NCBI GenBank assembly: GCA_031265445.1
Contig: JAISCQ010000055.1
Coordinates: forward strand, 1 to 35,754
DNA: 35,754 bases
Origin: Bacteroidales bacterium
GTDB lineage: Bacteria > Bacteroidota > Bacteroidia > Bacteroidales > UBA4181
Reading direction: 5' to 3'
Shown: piece after piece, positions 271 to 11,430 of the stretch
Numbering within the stretch: position 1 is the stretch's first letter
Layout: each line of letters opens with the position of its first letter
Notes under the pieces: model-generated
What the model saw: the letters and a program-made list of their open reading frames with translations, nothing else
What the model was told of the DNA's origin: nothing
Database searches by the model: none
Translations under genes and position numbers: made by a program

Positions 271-3183
271 TCAGGGAGTCAGCGCCTCAAACAATACCTC
301 CACAGGGTGCTTTGCTTTCCTGCCTGTACCATGTTCGATGTGTTGGCGGCAACTGGTTCCCGGCGCGGCGATAATCGTATCTTCCGGCGTTTCGCGTACC
401 TGTGGAAAAAGCAGCAATTCGCCTATCCGCATCGAGAGATCGTAATGCTTTTTCTCGTAGCCAAACGAACCGGCCATGCCGCAACATCCTGTGTTCAATT
501 CGCGGACAGCGTAGTTTTCAGGTATGGAAAGCATATCGCGCGTAGCCTGCGTGGTGATGAGCGATTTTTGCTGACAGTGCCCATGAAAAGCGATATTGGC
601 CGCCCGGTCGGTAAACGACGAGGAACTGATCCGTCCCTGTTTCCACTCGCGAACTATAAACTCCTCGACGGTCAATGTATTGGGGGCCAGCTTTCCGGCA
701 GTTTCACGCAATGCAGGTGAAACCAGCTCGGGATATTCGTCACGGAAACTGAGGATGCACGACGGTTCGATACCGACCAGCGGAACCTTTTCCGAAACGA
801 GCTTACCGAACAAATCAACATTGTGATCGGCAATCTTCTGCGCTTTCCGTAACAGTCCCTTGGAAATATATGTCCGGCCACTCTCCCTGTGTTGCACTAT
901 TTCGATACGATACCCCAAACGGCGCAGCAATGCAACCGCTGAGATGCCAACAGGCACGTCATGGTAGCCGGTGAACTCGTCAATAAAAAGATACAGTCTG
1001 CCAACATGCTGCTTTATAGAACTTTCATTCGAAAAAGTAGGATGAGAAAGCCGTTTACGAAGACTGTACCTGTGAATTTGGGGAATCTTCCTTCGCGGAT
1101 CAAACCCCATCATTTTCGCCGTCAGCGAACATGCGGATATATGGTTGTACAATTTCGGCCACAGGCTGCCTGTTTTATTCAGTAAATTGATGTGCGCCAC
1201 CATCCGGGCACGGAAAGGCGTCCCGTTGCGGTCATAATCATGCTGTAGAAATTCGGCTTTTAATCTGGCCATATCCACATTTGAAGGACATTCGCTTTTG
1301 CATCCTTTACATGAAAGACAAAGATCCAGTACGTCAGACAGTTCTTTGCTTCCGAATGATGCATTTCCGTCATCCTGTAACAGGTATTCGCGAAGGAGAT
1401 TGGCGCGCGCGCGCGTGCTTAACTTTTCGTTGTGGGTAGCCATGTAGCTGGGACACATGGTTCCGCCGGCGGTATGCCATTTCCGGCAGTCGCCCGAACC
1501 GTTGCAACGCTCCACAGCCCGCATCATTCCAGCTGTCGACGAAAAATCGAAGACGGTTTTGATCTCCTTCACGGGACGTCCCGGTTCGTAGCGCAGCGAA
1601 GTATCCATCGGCGGGGTATCCGTGATCTTTCCCGGATTGAAAATTCCCTGCGGATCAAAATACTCCTTCACTTTTTTAAATAATCCGTACACATGATCAC
1701 CGTACATCAGCGGGATAAATTCGCCGCGAAGACGCCCGTCGCCATGCTCGCCGCTTAGCGAACCGCGGTATTTCTTCACCAGGACAGCCGTTTCGCGGGC
1801 AATCGTACGGAACAGCCTGACGTCTTCCTGGTCTTTGAGATTCAGTATCGGCCGCAGGTGCAGTTCGCCTGTGGCTATGTGTGCGTGGTATACGCAATGA
1901 AGCCCGTAGCGTTCCAGTAACTGTTTAAATTCGGCAATGCAGGCAGGGAGATCTTCGGGAAGGATGGCAGTATCCTCAATCACCGACACAGGCTTGGCAT
2001 CGCCCTTCATATTCGACAGCACGCCCAGCCCGGCCTTACGCAGCGCCCATACTTTGTTGACATCCGCGCCGGTAATGAGTGGAAAATGGTAACCGTACCC
2101 GGCCGTTTTCATGGCCTGTTCCAGGCGAACAGCCCGCTGACGGATGGTTTCCCCGTCATGGCCGGCAAACTCCACAATCAGGATCGCGCCGGGATTGCCC
2201 CGGACGAAAAAACGGTTGCGCTGCTGTAAAAGATTGTCCCCGGTCAGCTCCAGAATCACGCTGTCCATCAGTTCCACAGCTGTCGGGGCATGCTGAAGCG
2301 CCACCAGGTTGGCATGCAGCGCCTCGTCTACCGAATGAAGGTGGATGCACATTACAGCCGTCAATGGCGGAGGAAGCGGAACCACGCGCAGCTTCACCGC
2401 AGTGATGAAAACCAGCGTTCCTTCCGAACCGGCAATGAGCGGACAGAGATTGAACGGACGCTCGCCGCCAAACGGCTGCATATCCATAAGTTCATCGAGG
2501 GCGTAACCGTTGTTGCGCCGCCGTATGCCGGGCTTGGGAAACTGTTCGCTGATTTCCGACCGGTTAAGCGTGTCGGACAATAGCTCTTTCACATTCCTGT
2601 AGATGTTGTTTTCTAATGCGTTACCCTTTGTTTTCTCATCAAATGCTTTCATATCCATGTCGGCAAATTCCACCTCGCTGCCATCGCTCAGCAGGGCTTT
2701 AACCGCCAGGGTATGGTCGCGCGTGCTACCGTATACGAGCGAATGTAAACCGCACGAATTGTTGCCTACCATCCCGCCGATGGTACAGCGGTTGGATGTG
2801 GACGTTTCCGGTGCGAAAAATACACCATGAGGCTTCAGGTAACGGTTTAATTCATCAGGAACCACACCCGGTTCCACCCAAACCCAGCCTTCGTCAAAAT
2901 TTTCATCCAGGATACGGGTCATGTACCGCGAGACGTCCACGATCAATCCGCCGCCTACTACCTGACCTGCCAATGACGTGCCGCCCGCCCTCGGTACCAG
3001 GCTGACGCCTTCGCGACGGGCCTTATCGATCAGCAGGCGGACATCGGCGGCATCTTCAGGATAAGCCACAGCCAGCGGCAATTCGCGATAAGCTGACGCA
3101 TCGGTTGCATAAACCGTCCGGTCAATGATATCCGTATGAAAGCTGCCGCGAAAGCCGTCGGGTTTGGAAAGATCGGAAGACAT
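271..3183 (-). CDS. FAD-linked oxidase / Fe-S cysteine-rich domain protein (GlcD-GlpC type)
   Basis: This is probably a flavin-dependent 2-hydroxyacid (D-lactate or glycolate type) dehydrogenase passing electrons through Fe-S clusters. The N-terminal half is a FAD-binding PCMH-type domain: RAGGTSLAGQ near residue 70 and GMVGNNSCG near 140 are flavin-contacting motifs. It is followed by a FAD-oxidase C-terminal domain with SGEHGDGR near residue 480. The last 400 residues carry ferredoxin-like Cys groups (CNGSGDCRKW and CLSCKGCKSECP) and two cysteine-rich redox motifs, one ending LNTGCCGMAGSFGYE. At about 970 residues it has the usual length of the single-chain fusion. A TTG 12 bases upstream also keeps the frame open, but ATG at 3183 (MSSDLSKPDG) is preferred. 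It follows folD by 33 bases on the same strand, so cotranscription is likely. The substrate cannot be read from the sequence. Confidence 0.88.
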   Translation of the reverse strand: MSSDLSKPDGFRGSFHTDIIDRTVYATDASAYRELPLAVAYPEDAADVRLLIDKARREGVSLVPRAGGTSLAGQVVGGGLIVDVSRYMTRILDENFDEGWVWVEPGVVPDELNRYLKPHGVFFAPETSTSNRCTIGGMVGNNSCGLHSLVYGSTRDHTLAVKALLSDGSEVEFADMDMKAFDEKTKGNALENNIYRNVKELLSDTLNRSEISEQFPKPGIRRRNNGYALDELMDMQPFGGERPFNLCPLIAGSEGTLVFITAVKLRVVPLPPPLTAVMCIHLHSVDEALHANLVALQHAPTAVELMDSVILELTGDNLLQQRNRFFVRGNPGAILIVEFAGHDGETIRQRAVRLEQAMKTAGYGYHFPLITGADVNKVWALRKAGLGVLSNMKGDAKPVSVIEDTAILPEDLPACIAEFKQLLERYGLHCVYHAHIATGELHLRPILNLKDQEDVRLFRTIARETAVLVKKYRGSLSGEHGDGRLRGEFIPLMYGDHVYGLFKKVKEYFDPQGIFNPGKITDTPPMDTSLRYEPGRPVKEIKTVFDFSSTAGMMRAVERCNGSGDCRKWHTAGGTMCPSYMATHNEKLSTRARANLLREYLLQDDGNASFGSKELSDVLDLCLSCKGCKSECPSNVDMARLKAEFLQHDYDRNGTPFRARMVAHINLLNKTGSLWPKLYNHISACSLTAKMMGFDPRRKIPQIHRYSLRKRLSHPTFSNESSIKQHVGRLYLFIDEFTGYHDVPVGISAVALLRRLGYRIEIVQHRESGRTYISKGLLRKAQKIADHNVDLFGKLVSEKVPLVGIEPSCILSFRDEYPELVSPALRETAGKLAPNTLTVEEFIVREWKQGRISSSSFTDRAANIAFHGHCQQKSLITTQATRDMLSIPENYAVRELNTGCCGMAGSFGYEKKHYDLSMRIGELLLFPQVRETPEDTIIAAPGTSCRQHIEHGTGRKAKHPVEVLFEALTP

Positions 3184-3216
3184 GGAAAAACGCAAGATCG
3201 TGTGAGGTCTTCACAT

Positions 3217-4135: not shown

Positions 4136-4456
4136 TCAGTTATAACCCAGCGGGGCAAAACCCGGCCCGCGGTCATCCACTTTTACCGTCCCGTGGACGG
4201 TTTCAAATTTCGACATGTTCTCGCCCAGAGCAAGCAGCAAACGCTTGGCATGTTCGGGCGTGAGGATGATGCGCGATTTCACTTCCGCTTTCGGGATGCC
4301 GGGCATGATGCGGATAAAGTCCAGCACAAATTCCGACGACGAGTGCGATATGATGGCCAGATTGGAATAAATCCCCTGGGCGATCTCGTCTTTCAACTCG
4401 ATGTTGATCTGATTCAGATTCTGGTTTTGATTCTGGTTTTGATTTTGGTTCTCCAT
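4136..4456 (-). CDS. DUF3467 family protein
   Basis: This is a small (106-residue) conserved protein of unknown function, common in Bacteroidota and other phyla. After a low-complexity Asn/Gln leader made of six NQ pairs, the recognisable DUF3467 core begins with INIELKDEIAQGIYSNLAII. It continues through EFVLDFIRIMPG and the family hallmark SRIILTPEHAKRLLLAL, ending in a short PGFAPLGYN tail. The NQ leader is encoded by a CAAAAC/CAGAAT hexanucleotide run and could vary in length. Its first 254 coding bases lie inside the 3' part of the upstream glycosyltransferase frame, shifted by one base. folD follows 49 bases later. The function is not known to me, and the family name is all the sequence supports. 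Confidence 0.88.
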   Translation of the reverse strand: MENQNQNQNQNQNLNQINIELKDEIAQGIYSNLAIISHSSSEFVLDFIRIMPGIPKAEVKSRIILTPEHAKRLLLALGENMSKFETVHGTVKVDDRGPGFAPLGYN

Positions 4457-5921
4457 GATATTTTGAATGATAAGAAGATTGGTGACTTTTCCTGGAATTT
4501 CCGGTTTTCAGAAATTCGGTAAATTTGATTTTCCGCGCGGCAAAGAGGCTCATCCTGAGCAGCAGCAATCCGTGACGAAACCGGCTGATTTGCGTGGAAC
4601 CGTAGGCGCGATCCCTGTAGCGTATGATCAGTTCGACGATCTTGAGGTTTTGCTTGGCGGCGCCAAAGAGAAGGTCAAAATCGCCGAAGGGGTCGAAATT
4701 ACCGAAATAGGAACGATTGTCCCTGATGGTTTCATAATCTCTGCGAAACAGCGCTTTCGTGCCGCACAGCGTATCTTTCAGGCGCTGCCCCAGCAGGTAG
4801 GAGAAAAACCATCCGAAAAACTTGTTGCCCAGCAAATTCAGAAAGCGCATGGCATTTTTCTCCATCGGATAAACCAGCCTGCATCCGTTGATGAACTCGC
4901 CCCTGTTATGATACAGCGCCTGATAGAATTTCGGCAATTCTTCGGGCGGCATGGTCAGGTCGGCATCCAGAATCATCAGCGCTTCACCCGTTGCGGCGTC
5001 AAAAGCTTCGCGCACAGCATTCCCCTTTCCTTCCCCGGTTTGGCGCATGACCCTGATGTCCTTTTCCGGAAACGCAGCCTGTACGCGGCATATTTCTTCG
5101 TAGGTGCAGTCGGAAGAATGTCCCTCGATAAAGATAAATTCCTGATGCGTACCGAAAACGGGCGTCCGGCGGATGGCATTTTCGATGTTCCCCCGTTCGT
5201 TGCGTGCGGGAATGATGATGGACACCGAAAAGGGACGTTCCTCATGCAGTATCGGACGCGAAACGTGCAGGTTGACAAGTCCCAGGCGGTTGAATCCCGG
5301 CAGGTTAGCCAGCAATCCGTTCAACAGGCCGTGCAGCAGCGGAATATAGGCGGGCAGCAGGATTTTCCGTTCCATCCGTATCGTCTGGAAGCCTTCCAGC
5401 TGCAACAGTCCTTCCGTATCCTTTACGGAAAACCAGTTCGCATTGGGTTGCTTCTGTTTCAGGCCGATCCGTTCCAGTAACTTGATCACGGGTTCCCAAA
5501 GGAAGCTGTATTGCGTGATTACCACGCGCGTCTGCGGATGGCACAGCCTGCGAATGTTGTGAATGGCCTTCTGCGCATCCCACAGGCATCCCATCAAATC
5601 GCTGAGAATGATGTAATCGAAAGTGTCGCTGCCGGTCTGTAACGTTTCCACGTCGTCTACGGCGAAATGAAGACGGGGATATTTCCGTCGCGCCAAATCA
5701 ATCACTTCCGGCACAAGGTCGATACCCATTCCGAAAGCCGGTTTTACGGCATGCAGCAAATTACCGCTCCCGCAACCGATCTCGATCACTCTTTTCCCCG
5801 GCGGGATGATGAACGAACAGTAGCGCTCCAGCATACGATGGTAGAAGGCATTCCGCTTGTTCCACCTTTCCCGCTTCCACACCGTTTCCCGATAAAACGC
5901 ACTTATTTCTTCCTTAGTCAT
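4203..5921 (-). CDS. SAM methyltransferase - GT2 glycosyltransferase fusion
   Basis: This two-domain protein probably modifies a surface glycan or lipid. Residues 1-220 are a class I SAM methyltransferase (VIEIGCGSGNLL at 45-56, VDDVETL near 88-94). Residues 230-470 are a family 2 glycosyltransferase of the dolichyl-phosphate-mannose-synthase type (SVSIIIPARNERGNIENAI at 232-250, GEGKGNAVREAF, ILDADL with Asp319/Asp321 as metal ligands, CGTKALFRRD). I chose ATG 5921 because a TAnnTTTG box lies at 5952-5959 and because the frame further upstream only translates repeat DNA into Cys/Ser/His-rich sequence. The frame stays open about 100 residues past the GT2 homology, through the whole intergenic gap and into the DUF3467 gene. 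That tail (Ser/Lys/Glu/His-rich) looks non-homologous and suggests a lost stop codon. Confidence 0.85.
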   Translation of the reverse strand: MTKEEISAFYRETVWKRERWNKRNAFYHRMLERYCSFIIPPGKRVIEIGCGSGNLLHAVKPAFGMGIDLVPEVIDLARRKYPRLHFAVDDVETLQTGSDTFDYIILSDLMGCLWDAQKAIHNIRRLCHPQTRVVITQYSFLWEPVIKLLERIGLKQKQPNANWFSVKDTEGLLQLEGFQTIRMERKILLPAYIPLLHGLLNGLLANLPGFNRLGLVNLHVSRPILHEERPFSVSIIIPARNERGNIENAIRRTPVFGTHQEFIFIEGHSSDCTYEEICRVQAAFPEKDIRVMRQTGEGKGNAVREAFDAATGEALMILDADLTMPPEELPKFYQALYHNRGEFINGCRLVYPMEKNAMRFLNLLGNKFFGWFFSYLLGQRLKDTLCGTKALFRRDYETIRDNRSYFGNFDPFGDFDLLFGAAKQNLKIVELIIRYRDRAYGSTQISRFRHGLLLLRMSLFAARKIKFTEFLKTGNSRKSHQSSYHSKYHGEPKSKPESKPESESDQHRVERRDRPGDLFQSGHHIALVVGICAGLYPHHARHPESGSEIAHHPHARTCQAFAACSGREHVEI

Positions 5922-5951
5922 ATAGACGATTTGACCGTTTCGATTTCCCCG

Positions 5952-5959
5952 CAAAATTA
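5952..5959 (-). promoter_or_regulatory. Bacteroidota -7 box for the methyltransferase-GT2 operon
   Basis: On the minus strand this reads TAATTTTG, matching TAnnTTTG, 30 bases upstream of the ATG at 5921. No convincing -33 TTG is seen at the best spacing. It supports the start at 5921 and the reading of the four genes down to 271 as one unit. Confidence 0.5.
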
Positions 5960-6088
5960 TAAAAAAATCACTACCGATCGATCCCGGCGGACCTGTTATT
6001 TCCTTTTCCGGTTTTGCGAAAGCAGGGTATGATTTTTTTCGACCATGACCCCTATTTGACCCTGTCAGGATTGTTTCCCGCATGTTTG

Positions 6089-6195
6089 CACAATGGGATG
6101 AACAATGGGGTGAACAATGGGGCGAACAATGGGGCGAACAATAGGGCGAACAATAGGACGAACAATAGGACGCACACGCAGGGCGAACAATAGGG
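6089..6195. repeat. 12-bp tandem array, unit GGCGAACAATAG
   Basis: About nine imperfect head-to-tail copies of a 12-bp unit (variants GGTGAACAATGG, GGCGAACAATGG, GACGAACAATAG) run up to a GGGCGCAC palindrome. Copies drift gradually from GATGAACAATGG on the left to GGCGAACAATAG on the right, as expected from slippage and unequal exchange. Because 12 is a multiple of three the array stays open as a Cys/Ser/His-rich frame, which is an artefact. Confidence 0.8.
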
Positions 6196-6285
6196 CGCAC
6201 ACACAGGTGCGCCCCTACATTGTCGTTACCGTGATCAATAATATCAATAATATCACAACGTAGGGGCGAACCTGTGTGTTCGCCC
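6193..6285. repeat. GGGCGNAC...GTNCGCCC palindromic element pair
   Basis: There are two 8-bp-stem hairpins: GGGCGCAC-ACACAG-GTGCGCCC (6193-6214) and GGGCGAAC-CTGTGT-GTTCGCCC (6264-6285). They are arranged so that 6206-6223 and the 18 bases ending near 6272 are also near-perfect inverted repeats (CGCCCCTAC/GTAGGGGCG). Similar GTAGGGGCG...CGCCC elements are widespread intergenic REP-like repeats in many phyla. A further half copy (CCTGTGTGTTCGCCC) follows at 6289-6303. Confidence 0.75.
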
Positions 6286-6492
6286 TAACCTGTGTGTTCG
6301 CCCATGTCATATAACAAAGCCATCCCGCGCACAGTATAATTTGAAATTACACATTAATTATATACATTAATTATATTATAACACGAGATATTCAAAAATA
6401 GATTGCATCACCAGCATTATTTTTTGCTGCCTTCTGCAGTTCCCCCCGAAATCTCAAAAATTTTCTCACTGTCTTGTGTCCCCGGCAGCTAT

Positions 6493-9400
6493 TTATCTCA
6501 TATTCTTCAACAGGCACAAATAAGCGTCTTCCAGATTCGGTTCTGCCGGAACCGCGTTTTCAAACGGTTGCAGGCTGGCCAGATAGCGTACCTGGATGGT
6601 ATCGCCGTCCTGGATATGGTGCACCACCATCGTTTTATCGAGCGATGTATCGAACTCATCCGTGCCGATGCGGAAATTCCAGACTTTCCCGGCGGCTAAC
6701 CTTACCATATCGGCCGGGTTGCCGAAATATTTCATATCGCCCCTGTCCACCACTACCACCTGGTTGCACGAACTGGAAATATCCTCGATGATATGGGTGG
6801 AGAAGATCACCACGCGTTCGCGGCTTAATTCTACCAGCAGGTTGCGGAAGCGGATGCGTTCGCGCGGATCCAGGCCGGCGGTAGGCTCGTCCACGATGAG
6901 GATACGCGGCAGGTGCAGCAGGATGAGGGCAATACCGATGCGCTGCTTCATTCCGCCGGAGAACGAGCCGATCCTGTCGTCGCGACATTCGTACATGTGC
7001 ACGGCTTTCAGCACGTATTCGACGCGCTCGCCACGCAGTTTCCCGTCAACAACGCCTTTCAGGATAGCCTGGTAGTCAAGGAATTCCCAGGAGGTCATGT
7101 TTTCGTAGGTGCCAAATTCCTGTGGCAGGAATCCGATCAGGCTTTGCAACTCCTCGCGGTACACGCGGGTATCGAGGCCATTGATCCGGATGCAGCCGTA
7201 GCTTTGCTCCAATATGCCGCATACAATGCGCATCAGTGTCGACTTGCCTGCGCCGTTTGGGCCCAGCAGTCCGAACATACCGGTTTTAATCTCAAACGAT
7301 ACGCCGCGCAACGCTTTGAATGGCTTGCGCTTCTTCCCGATGACGGGGATGCTTTTCACCAGCCGGTACCAAATGCGGCGAAGGCGTCCCCTGGCGCGTT
7401 CCACATTGATATTCTGATCGTAAAGTTTGCGTGAAGTACGGTAAATGACGGCGCACAGCGCCCAGATAACAGCTGTGACAATGATCAGGTTGGGGTTGTC
7501 CATCCGGCGATAGAGCGCAAACAGCGTGGCAAGCGGGATACCCCACCATACCAGCCGGCTGATCCACCGTACCCGGCGTTTTCCCGCGAAACGGTAATCG
7601 AGGTACTGGCGTATTCTTTTCCACAGGTGGAGCGCCCCGGCATATACGGCAAACGAAAGGAGAAACGTCCAGAAACGTTTCTCGATGGCAAAATATGCGA
7701 ACCACGCGCCGAACAGCAGCAACCCGAATTGCCATGTCAGCCCGGCCAAATCTTTCAACGAACGGAATGCGCTGCTTATTCCGAGCCGTTGACGAATTTT
7801 CAGTCCGCTCATCCATTGACGGCGGAAACGTCCCGGCCAGTCGTAAATCTTCACCAGGTTGCGCACATCGATGCTGATCGGGTCGTCGGGCGCAATCAGC
7901 CTGGTACGGGCGCGACGCAGGCTGGCTTGCATGAAATAAGTCAGTCCGGGAATAAGGATCACCAGTCCGACTAAGTAAATGGACTGCCATAAAAGGGTTT
8001 CGGCATAACGGTAGATGCAGAACACGCCGGCGACAAACAGGATGAGGTGGAAGATTTTCATTCGCAGCGGAAGGGTACGGTACCATTTCAGCGTATTTTC
8101 GAGACCCATGCATGCGGACGGTACGAGGATCAGCGTGAGCAGCGCCGAGAACGATAACCCGCCGATAACCGTAATGGCAAACGGCGCCCCGATAGCCCCG
8201 GCATATTCCGATTTGCCCATCGCTAACGGGAACATGGCGACAATGGTAGTGATCGACGTGATGAGGATCGGGCGGACGCGCGACAAACCGGCCGTCATCA
8301 GTGCACGGTTACGGCGATAGCCTTGCCTGCGCAGGATATTCGAGTAGTCGATGAGGATGATGCTGTTGTTGACCACCACGCCCAGCAGGATGAGAAAGCC
8401 GGTGAGCGTGTTGGTGTTCAGCAGGCTGTTGCCGGTGACCAGCAGCGCCAGCAGCGAGCCGATGGCGGCCAGCGGGATGGAGAACAGCAGCACAAACGGC
8501 GTGGAAAACGACTCGAACACCGACGCAAGGATCATGAAAATGAGGATAAAAGCCGCCAGCAACAGGAACTTGAAATCGCCGAGGATGTCCTCCTCGTGAA
8601 ACACCTGCACGGCAATGCCCGCAGGCAGGTTATAATTTGCAACCAGCAGGTCGATATCCGCGCGGTATCCTTCCAGCAGGTTTTTGGACGATTCCACCTC
8701 CCGCGAAAAACTGTAGAATACCTCGATTTGCTTGTCCTGATTCACGCGGTATATCTGCGAACGCCCGCGTCCGCGGTTGATCGCGGCCAAATCCTTCAAT
8801 TCGTGCAGGCCTCCGTTGGCATTGCGTATCTGTACGGCGCGCAGGTCATCGATGGTCTTTTCTTTCCGCTTCGTTTTTTCTTCCTCCTCTTCGGGAATAT
8901 TGTTACGGATCACAATATCGTAAGTCTCTTCGCCTACCTTGAAGGTCGTTCCGGATTGCATTTCGGGATTCAGCGACATCAGCCCCTGCGTAATATCAGC
9001 CTGCGTGATGCTGTACGAACTGAGCAGGATCGGATCGAAGTTCAGCAGCAGTTCCGGTTGACGGCGGTCGAACGACACGCGCGAATTTCTGATATAGTCC
9101 TGTTCATCCAGATAATAGCGCATATCCTCGGCCACCACCTGCATCAAATCGAAATCAGAACCTTTGATCACAATGCGTTCGCGGGTGTCTCCTATGCCCA
9201 GCATATACATGAACCCGGCCATGCCGCTTATCGCCGACCCGCCGCCGTCACCGCTTACGCCGCTCGACAGCGAGACTTCCGCGCCGTTGATGTTCTGCAA
9301 CCTCCGCTGCACCTCCGCTTTGATGTCGGCAATGTTCCGTTTCCCGGTCTTCCGGTAATCTTCCGTCAGTGTCAGCGTCAGTATCGCTTCTTTTTCCTGT

Positions 9401-11184
9401 ATCCAGCAGGAAAGGTCTTTCTTTTCGGGAAAATCGGCCAACCGTTCCTCCATCACGCGGACGGCCTTGTCGGTAATGTCCAGGGTACTTCCCGCCTGCA
9501 TCTCCACACGAACATCCACCTTGTCCGACTCGGCTTCCTTCGTTTGCGACAGGGTCAACGCCAGCGAAAGGGCAAGCGTCACAAAAAGTATGACAATGGA
9601 ACTGAGGAGCACCGCACCGGGATGGCGCATGCAGGTTTTCAGCAGCACCAGGTAAATCTGTACGGGACGTTGCGTTACGGATACTTTTTCGTAAAACACG
9701 GTATGGTCCCGTTTGCGCCGCAGGATAGCGTATACCGCCATCGGAACGAACAGCAGCGCTACCAGCAGCGATATGGAGAGGGTCGAGATGATGGATACCC
9801 CAATGTTATTGCCAAGCAGCTTGATAAAGAAATTTTCGGAAAACACGAACGGCAGGAATACCGTGATGGTGGTGAGCGTGGCTGCCAGTATCGAACGCCA
9901 TACCTCGCGCGTACCCTGCGTAACGGCGCGTTCGGCCGCACAACCGGCGCCCGACAGCCGGTAGACATTTTCGAGCACCACGACGCTGTTGTCCAGCAAC
10001 ATTCCCACGGCAAGCGCCATTCCCACCAGCGTGAGGCTGTTGATGGTGATACCAAAGGCGTAGAAGAAGTTGAACGCCGTGAAAACAGAAACAGGAATGG
10101 ACAGGGCGATGATGAGCACCAGCCGGACGTTTCTCAGGAAGAACCACAGGATGAGCACGGCCAGCAATCCGCCCGTAATTGCAAGGTTAATGATCTGGTT
10201 GATGTTCTTTTCCATGATTTCCGCCGTGTCGCTCTGCACGGAAATCTCGATATCAAGCGGCAACAGTTTCCCGTTGAGTGTGCCGATGACATCCGCTACG
10301 CGATGCGACAGGTCGATGAGATTGGCCTGCGAATCGTTTGCCAGGTTCACACTCACGGCATCCTTCCCGTTCACGCGGCTGTAGGTTGTTTCCTCCTTGA
10401 GGTCGAAAAAGACGGCGGCCACATCTTTCAGCAATACCGGCCCCGACGCCACCACGATGTTTTCGAGATCGGAAACTTTGGCATACGGTGAATTGACATG
10501 GACAAAATATTTACCGGACGGCTCGTTGGCAAAACCGACAAAGGCCTTGTCCTGCATGTTTTGCGAAAGCAGCCCGCTGATAACCGATGGCGTGAGGTTC
10601 AACGCTTTGCACGCATCGGGATCGAGCCGTATCTCGATGGCGCGTTCGCGACCGCCGTATACATTCACCGCCGCCACCCCGTCGATATTCTCCAGCTCGG
10701 TGCGGATCTCCTTCTCCACGATGTTGCGTACACGGTCTGTTCCGCCCGATCCGCGTACCTGCAAGCGCATGAAGTTACTCGACAGCATCTGCGATATGTC
10801 GATCTTCTGCACCTGAACCATGAAGTCTTTGGGAAAGCCTGTAGCCGTTTCGTTTACCTTTTCCTGCAATTTCAGTGCAGTGATCTTGAAATTGACGTTT
10901 TTCTTGAACCTGACTTCAATGCTCGACTGCCGGCTACCAACCCTCGAGCGGATTTCCTCCACGCCCCCGACAGAACTGATGGCGCCCTCGAGCGGAATGA
11001 CGACCTCAGACTCTACGTAGTTCGGATCCATATCCTGCTGCGAGCCTACCCCCACGTATAACACCGGGAGTTCGGCATTGGGCAAAAGTTCCACAGGAAG
11101 CTGCCGATACGACACGTACCCCAGCAGGGTAAGCGCGATGAACAGCATACAGATCGCGACGCGGCGGTTGAGGAGGAAATTCAT
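6493..11184 (-). CDS. RND efflux permease - ABC ATPase fusion protein
   Basis: This 1563-residue inner-membrane protein joins two transporter types. Residues 1 to about 1030 are a complete HAE1/AcrB-like RND permease. It opens with a MNFLLNRRVAI membrane anchor and has TM4 motif GMLLDNSVVVLENV (Asp398, the proton-relay Asp; the second AcrB Asp is Asn399, as in many relatives). Two porter/docking repeats follow, and the TM10 motif GVVVNNSIILIDY lies near 938. Two further spans follow at about 1041-1085. An NBD-like first strand (IDVRNLVKIY, about 1103-1112) is followed by about 170 residues with roughly four spans (1150-1167, 1169-1187, 1210-1225, 1232-1250). A full ABC ATPase comes next: ALRGVSFEI near 1292, Walker A GPNGAGKST (Lys1314), signature FSGGMKQR near 1410, Walker B ILIVDEPTAGLD near 1432 and H-loop STHIIED. 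The ATPase resembles NatA/ABC-2 drug exporters. No adaptor, TolC or ABC permease gene adjoins it. The substrate is unknown. Confidence 0.9.
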   Translation of the reverse strand: MNFLLNRRVAICMLFIALTLLGYVSYRQLPVELLPNAELPVLYVGVGSQQDMDPNYVESEVVIPLEGAISSVGGVEEIRSRVGSRQSSIEVRFKKNVNFKITALKLQEKVNETATGFPKDFMVQVQKIDISQMLSSNFMRLQVRGSGGTDRVRNIVEKEIRTELENIDGVAAVNVYGGRERAIEIRLDPDACKALNLTPSVISGLLSQNMQDKAFVGFANEPSGKYFVHVNSPYAKVSDLENIVVASGPVLLKDVAAVFFDLKEETTYSRVNGKDAVSVNLANDSQANLIDLSHRVADVIGTLNGKLLPLDIEISVQSDTAEIMEKNINQIINLAITGGLLAVLILWFFLRNVRLVLIIALSIPVSVFTAFNFFYAFGITINSLTLVGMALAVGMLLDNSVVVLENVYRLSGAGCAAERAVTQGTREVWRSILAATLTTITVFLPFVFSENFFIKLLGNNIGVSIISTLSISLLVALLFVPMAVYAILRRKRDHTVFYEKVSVTQRPVQIYLVLLKTCMRHPGAVLLSSIVILFVTLALSLALTLSQTKEAESDKVDVRVEMQAGSTLDITDKAVRVMEERLADFPEKKDLSCWIQEKEAILTLTLTEDYRKTGKRNIADIKAEVQRRLQNINGAEVSLSSGVSGDGGGSAISGMAGFMYMLGIGDTRERIVIKGSDFDLMQVVAEDMRYYLDEQDYIRNSRVSFDRRQPELLLNFDPILLSSYSITQADITQGLMSLNPEMQSGTTFKVGEETYDIVIRNNIPEEEEEKTKRKEKTIDDLRAVQIRNANGGLHELKDLAAINRGRGRSQIYRVNQDKQIEVFYSFSREVESSKNLLEGYRADIDLLVANYNLPAGIAVQVFHEEDILGDFKFLLLAAFILIFMILASVFESFSTPFVLLFSIPLAAIGSLLALLVTGNSLLNTNTLTGFLILLGVVVNNSIILIDYSNILRRQGYRRNRALMTAGLSRVRPILITSITTIVAMFPLAMGKSEYAGAIGAPFAITVIGGLSFSALLTLILVPSACMGLENTLKWYRTLPLRMKIFHLILFVAGVFCIYRYAETLLWQSIYLVGLVILIPGLTYFMQASLRRARTRLIAPDDPISIDVRNLVKIYDWPGRFRRQWMSGLKIRQRLGISSAFRSLKDLAGLTWQFGLLLFGAWFAYFAIEKRFWTFLLSFAVYAGALHLWKRIRQYLDYRFAGKRRVRWISRLVWWGIPLATLFALYRRMDNPNLIIVTAVIWALCAVIYRTSRKLYDQNINVERARGRLRRIWYRLVKSIPVIGKKRKPFKALRGVSFEIKTGMFGLLGPNGAGKSTLMRIVCGILEQSYGCIRINGLDTRVYREELQSLIGFLPQEFGTYENMTSWEFLDYQAILKGVVDGKLRGERVEYVLKAVHMYECRDDRIGSFSGGMKQRIGIALILLHLPRILIVDEPTAGLDPRERIRFRNLLVELSRERVVIFSTHIIEDISSSCNQVVVVDRGDMKYFGNPADMVRLAAGKVWNFRIGTDEFDTSLDKTMVVHHIQDGDTIQVRYLASLQPFENAVPAEPNLEDAYLCLLKNMR

Positions 11185-11417
11185 AAGGCCATGCAGGTTT
11201 TTGAAATTTTATACTGCATGCCGGGCGCATCATCCGGACGTTTCTCGAAACCGATCAACCGGTCATCCGCATACACTGACACAAAATACCAGCTATTCTT
11301 CATCGCGCCAAACAATTGCTCTTTGGGCTTTTTATTTTTATCGTTCCAGCCCGTCGATTCGTAAAGCGCATAAAATGAGGCTATATCAGGAAAATCAGTT
11401 GAATATCTAACAGTCAT
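11181..11417 (-). pseudogene. Truncated GNAT acetyltransferase fragment
   Basis: The first 55 or so residues match the N-terminal part of a common GNAT subfamily: a FYALYESTGWND segment, then AMKNSWYFVSVYADDRLIGF, where acetyl-CoA-domain strands 1-2 normally lead into G(R/F)VVSDG. After LIGF the similarity stops. About 20 unrelated residues follow and the frame ends in a TGA that overlaps the RND-ABC start codon (ATGA). A functional enzyme needs about 80 more residues, including the acetyl-CoA pyrophosphate loop, and these are absent. A GTG one codon upstream is an alternative start. I read it as a remnant left by a deletion or recombination next to the transporter gene. A genuine short coupled leader peptide cannot be excluded. 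Confidence 0.55.
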
Positions 11418-11430
11418 CACAATTTACTCA

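Follow-up and report, generated by a model that had tools for sequence, protein, structure and literature searches.

A conserved Bacteroidota protein joins an RND permease to an ABC ATPase domain apparently split by a membrane insert

RND pumps and ABC transporters count as two distinct superfamilies, each with an energy source of its own, and RND permeases of the drug-pump type are normally driven by the proton gradient. Among described machines, MdtABC-TolC shares with the locus analysed here an RND module with two different adjacent RND genes, an adaptor and a TolC-like channel, but MdtB and MdtC carry no ATPase and the system has no ABC genes. MacAB-TolC and YbhFSR share the combination of an ATP-driven inner-membrane part with an adaptor and an outer-membrane channel, but have no RND subunit. 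We found no description of an RND-ABC fusion in the open-access literature, and none appears in the passages that fusion-related terms picked out of the searched part of a 2021 Chem Rev review of tripartite pumps (PMC8277102); domain databases may well display the architecture without comment.

Here we describe such a fusion. The window, a stretch of 35,754 nucleotides from a draft Bacteroidales genome (GCA_031265445.1, contig JAISCQ010000055.1), contains one uninterrupted open reading frame of 1563 codons plus stop, from ATG to TGA, at 6493..11184 on the minus strand, which we call gene F. An initial annotation had read it as a single stop-free frame with an RND pump and an ABC ATPase, and Pfam indeed places both domains in one chain: ACR_tran (PF00873) at residues 2-1023 (532.4 bits, cut-off 28) and ABC_tran at 1292-1436 (89.8 bits, cut-off 25). 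The frame's coordinates hold, and its strand is corrected to minus. The chain, all of it encoded on that strand, runs from an HAE-1 type RND permease (residues 2-1023; 8116..11181) through two extra membrane helices seen in hydropathy and in the AlphaFold2 model (1040-1093; 7906..8067) to a predicted nucleotide-binding domain (NBD) strand 1 with the A-loop Tyr1114 (1103-1114, ISIDVRNLVKIY; 7843..7878). There follow a putative insert between NBD strands 1 and 2, drawn from the homologue alignment and the model (1115-1287; 7324..7842), with four predicted membrane helices (1143-1256; 7417..7758), and finally the remaining NBD with a C-terminal extension (1288-1563; 6496..7323).

How widespread is this architecture? 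We scanned a single genome for each species with the C-terminal 530 residues of F as query. Relatives turned up in 88 stretches, of which 79 distinct loci were kept; these, together with the genomes of the relatives, yielded 74 non-redundant full-length F sequences including the window's own, the others being 48-76% identical to it. They come from isolates, among them Parabacteroides gordonii, P. goldsteinii and Bacteroides faecis, and from metagenome assemblies across many Bacteroidota groups, and all 74 have the insert and the NBD motifs. In even samples that count the source genome itself, the insert region occurs in 40 of 295 genomes of the source's order and in 6 of 395 genomes of the phylum with other classes included; neither the recovered full-length set nor these samples contained an F homologue without the insert or without the fusion. 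The fusion, whose frequency the initial annotation had left to be checked, is thus conserved across Bacteroidota. Since the window is a draft contig, the fusion could in principle be an assembly join of two genes, but 74 non-redundant full-length homologues, isolates included, all with fusion, insert and NBD motifs, exclude chance or such a join, which we regard as vanishingly improbable.

By phmmer against the PDB, the RND part has E. coli MdtB as its closest solved relative. F has the full-length ACR_tran match of HAE-1 RND permeases, and it stays below the curated NCBIfam cut-offs for RND_permease_1/2, MdtB, MdtC and AcrB (best 451.9 bits against 1250). The module had been annotated as a complete RND pump with Asp398 as its proton relay. 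The fold and the residue hold: Asp398 (9991..9993, minus strand) corresponds to AcrB D407 and is invariant in 74 of 74 homologues. The completeness does not, for the position of AcrB D408 is Asn in 70 of the 74 and that of K940 is Asn939, so that only the D407 equivalent of the AcrB-type relay (D407, D408, K940) is kept, whereas MdtB has D408 and K940. With Asp398 the sole acid of the TM4 pair and Asn in place of K940, the classical AcrB relay is incomplete in F; judged by sequence, membership of the RND fold stands despite the altered relay, and an AcrB-type relay does not. The RND permease encoded next to F in its relatives (gene E, below) likewise has DN in TM4 in 68 of 69 sequences (one row could not be read); its TM10 carries NN, ND or NS. 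We considered DN/NN as a sign that ATP had replaced protons and dropped the idea, because DN/NN also occurs in an unfused RND from a Cetobacterium plasmid, and NN in an unfused RND from Brevibacillus; the pattern is therefore a trait of a broader RND subgroup and not evidence of ATP coupling.

The ATPase part carries a Walker A motif (GPNGAGKST, residues 1308-1316 with Lys1314; 7237..7263), a Q-loop, an ABC signature (SGGMK within SGGMKQR, 1409-1413; 6946..6960), a Walker B motif with the catalytic Glu1433 (ILIVDE, 1428-1433; 6886..6903) and the switch His1464 (6793..6795), all on the minus strand and all invariant in the homologue alignment. Lys1314, the signature and Walker B lie where they had first been annotated (the latter two at about 1410 and 1432). 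What F lacks is contiguity of strands 1 and 2, a usual though not strictly defining trait of NBDs. The initial annotation had recognised a first-strand motif, IDVRNLVKIY, preceded by two spans and followed by about 170 residues with roughly four spans. The motif is present, two residues further on than first placed (1105-1114, with Y1114 as the A-loop Tyr), and its I1105, V1111, K1112 and Y1114 are invariant among 60 sequences. Hydropathy averaged over the 74 homologues agrees with the span count, two before strand 1 and four after, and the stretch from residue 1113 to 1289 measures 170-213 aa across the full-length set (n=74).

An AlphaFold2 model of residues 1024-1563 (60 aligned sequences, pLDDT 79.8, pTM 0.56) predicts the same order: after two helices come a strand at 1105-1110 and an amphipathic helix, then four long helices and finally the other NBD strands, with the six membrane helices at model residues 17-37, 41-70, 120-143, 147-175, 180-205 and 208-233. 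Local confidence is moderate around strand 1 (pLDDT 58-73, model residues 71-100). VIA alignments of the model to solved NBDs (Z 24-25) start at model residues 78-82, that is F residues 1101-1105, which pair with residues 1-5 of LptB, MalK and others; 230 of the 235 LptB residues are aligned (Z 24). MacB, in which a four-helix type VII permease with a large periplasmic domain is joined to the NBD, was matched through its NBD only. An alignment that begins at residues 1-5 of LptB and MalK indicates that the modelled strand 1105-1110 fills the place of NBD strand 1, so the strand, whose packing into the NBD sheet had been put up for checking, is predicted to lie there. The NBD encoded by operon gene A, a paralogue 46% identical to the F-NBD over 267 aa including the C-terminal tail, reads MSISIKGLHMIYPGGKHALRDVDLEIPTGMFGLLGPNGAGKST, the same strand and loop, and has no insert.

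The predicted topology follows a positive-inside pattern: cytoplasmic loops hold on average 11.6, 5.4 and 10.4 Lys+Arg and periplasmic loops 0.3, 0.6 and 1.3, the loops differing in length. In two divergent homologues (L156, L157) the insert has a single hairpin of two spans, giving four extra spans in all, and Walker A follows strand 1 after about 140 residues instead of 203. An even number of spans, four or two, would keep strand 1 on the cytoplasmic side. The alignment start, the insert-free paralogue and the even span number thus bear out the annotated split, and a position of the membrane insert between NBD strands 1 and 2 is supported by homologue alignment and predicted structure. The alternative that the first-strand motif belongs to a second, degenerate NBD was rejected, as neither the homologue alignment nor a motif scan revealed a further P-loop or set of NBD motifs ahead of residue 1308. 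The insert region (1022-1287) has no Pfam match, no match worth noting among PDB chains by sequence, and no sequence relation to gene G. In another divergent homologue (L159:2072-6943) the cytoplasmic part of the insert contains an extra low-complexity stretch rich in Ser, Gly and Asp.

In its relatives F is the sixth of seven genes, A to G, on one strand, an order that is complete in four genomes (L108, L109, L111, L112). Gene A encodes a 297-aa NBD, B a protein of about 1100-1190 aa with an ABC-2-like N-terminus and an M1-peptidase-like region, C an outer-membrane efflux protein forming a TolC-like channel (Pfam OEP), D an HlyD-type adaptor (Pfam HlyD), E an RND permease (Pfam ACR_tran) and G a 237-aa membrane protein that its predicted structure suggests is a small ABC-2-fold permease. 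Among loci with enough flanking sequence, E lies directly upstream of F in 71 of 71 and G directly downstream in 69 of 70, while C is found upstream in 68 of 68 and D in 66 of 68. By this gene content the operon encodes two NBDs, two ABC-2-type and two RND permeases, an adaptor and a channel. Matches in PADLOC were to generic ABC/AAA ATPases, and we rejected a defence system as an explanation.

The two putative ABC permeases deserve closer description. The N-terminus of B matches ABC2_membrane_2 with an E value of 3.4e-4, below the Pfam cut-off, and is joined to the M1-like region in L104:9133-12459 and its homologues; a Golvesin C-terminal domain is also present on the L108 protein. The M1-like region has no HExxH motif, a single HExxH-like match (in L111) falling past the M1-matched region, and for that reason we do not claim a working peptidase; B may be a pseudo-enzyme that deals with the substrate on the periplasmic side. 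Pfam gives no match for G, and its AlphaFold2 model (pLDDT 84, pTM 0.80) aligns with NosY in VIA (Z 17.2, 216 residues, rmsd 3.6), its best 50 VIA entries being ABC-2-type transporters, so that an ABC-2 (type V) permease fold is predicted for it; Foldseek alone gave an E value of 0.05.

The genome from which the window comes has the operon in pieces on three contigs: A and B near the end of C100, with non-operon sequence after B; F on the window's contig (C16); and G on C202, adjoining a large ORF that looks by eye like a tRNA synthetase. No orthologue of E was found in this draft genome, where the best RND match is just 31% identical. Overlapping the start codon of F, at 11184-11420, is an ORF that by eye resembles the start of an acetyltransferase and is cut short at some 60 residues; it marks a breakpoint upstream of F. 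An interspersed repeat around gggcgaacacacaggttcgcccctacgttgtgatattattgatattattga occupies 6080-6320 of the window, with 30 match rows in the draft genome; a copy lies directly after B on C100, so that the repeat stands beside two of the scattered pieces. Elsewhere in the window, on the minus strand, 4203-6200 encodes a single chain with a methyltransferase domain at 134-232 and a family-2 glycosyltransferase domain at 327-489, and 271-3195 a 974-aa ORF with FAD-linked oxidase and 4Fe-4S dicluster domains.

With the operon scattered and E missing from the assembled sequence, the window's F may work differently from its relatives or be an orphan. That it is a decaying copy, cut from its operon by rearrangement, would fit any mechanism for the family and is suggested by the separation of A-B, F and G, each among other neighbours, and by the truncated ORF in front of F. 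Against this, F, G, A and B are all stop-free frames, and in a draft of 309 contigs that is 84.8% complete the dispersal could be real or could reflect missing genes or mis-joins; we consider the orphan explanation doubtful, though not far-fetched.

What might such a chain do? We speculate that F is an RND permease that is covalently half of an ABC exporter motor, tying a heteromeric ABC exporter to a heteromeric RND tripartite pump, a proposal that we hold to be evenly poised between right and wrong. Going by gene content, A and the F-NBD would make up a heterodimeric ATPase that powers permeases B and G, and E and F, as in MdtB-MdtC, would assemble into a heteromeric RND unit served by adaptor D and channel C. 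The extra helices of F, two before strand 1 and four within the NBD, would fasten the NBD to the membrane and hold the ABC part alongside the RND part. ATP hydrolysis would then serve to move the substrate or extract it at the inner membrane, and a conduit of RND, adaptor and channel would take it through the outer membrane. Such a joint machine is in keeping with the conservation of both ABC and RND partners beside F, the invariant ATPase motifs, the close kinship of the F-NBD and A, and MdtB, itself a subunit of a heteromeric pump, as the closest solved relative. It has to contend with a profile comparison that gave no link between G and the B permease region (P 0.13) and with the Foldseek value for G, with the need to reconcile three-fold RND with two-fold ABC symmetry, and with the scattered operon of the window's genome. 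A stronger version, in which the A/F-NBD heterodimer and a proton-coupled E/F make a single exporter with two energy sources and the helices inserted in the NBD couple ATP hydrolysis to the RND cycle, we put forward tentatively and think rather unlikely.

The same parts allow other arrangements. The F-NBDs could pair with one another or with A so that ATP drives or gates the RND cycle, the inserted helices transmitting the motion. The covalent fusion and the incomplete relays of both F and E are what one might expect of an ATP-gated pump, but as unfused RNDs share the DN/NN or NN residues and dedicated ABC-2-type permeases are co-encoded, we judge this unlikely. Those permeases also weigh against a self-contained ABC half-transporter mounted on an RND trimer, in which the extra helices of F, two and then four, would be its own permease domain: six is a number of spans known from ABC half-transporters, but L156 and L157 have four in all, the insert shows no sequence relation to G or to any PDB chain, and G, a separate permease by its predicted fold, almost always adjoins F, which leaves this option very unlikely. 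A looser association is also conceivable, in which the ABC and RND parts would be independent pumps with adaptor and channel in common, and the fusion would do no more than fix stoichiometry and location. In another genome (L136) an A-like NBD gene adjoins a gene for a large membrane protein and has no RND genes with it, from which it appears that the ABC half may stand alone. A mere tether should sometimes be lost, however, and the fusion and split NBD are strictly conserved across Bacteroidota, with no unfused F found, so that we consider a tether a little less probable than ATP gating. The joint machine of two heteromeric exporters remains our preferred reading.

A conserved RND-ABC chain that keeps both sets of partners offers a natural test of whether ATP and the proton gradient can be coupled in one trans-envelope exporter, and its carriers include gut Bacteroides and Parabacteroides species. 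The NBD, among the most conserved folds known, would also seem to tolerate membrane hairpins between its strands 1 and 2.

Joining an RND permease to a second pump component in one chain has a counterpart in the window's own genome, on contig C269 (L142:1401-5933), where a 1510-aa ORF encodes an RND permease (1-1037) and then, in the same frame, a NodT-type outer-membrane channel (1057-1509), and a 369-aa ORF upstream may be its adaptor; the partner there is a channel, not an ATPase. On the ABC side, the likeness is to NosDFY and other ABC-2 (type V) exporters and to NBDs of the GldA/DrrA type. Profiles place the F-NBD in this type (168.6 bits to GldA and 166.4 bits to DrrA, each short of the cut-off), and G would have a NosY-like fold. 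In an NBD tree F and A split from seven of the eight other NBDs of the window's genome with 97/96 support, the eighth having a very long branch and an unsure placement. To our knowledge, and in what our searches returned, no other NBD of the GldA/DrrA type has strands 1 and 2 separated by membrane helices, nor is any fused to an RND permease, and it is in these two respects that the family described here departs from its nearest ABC relatives.
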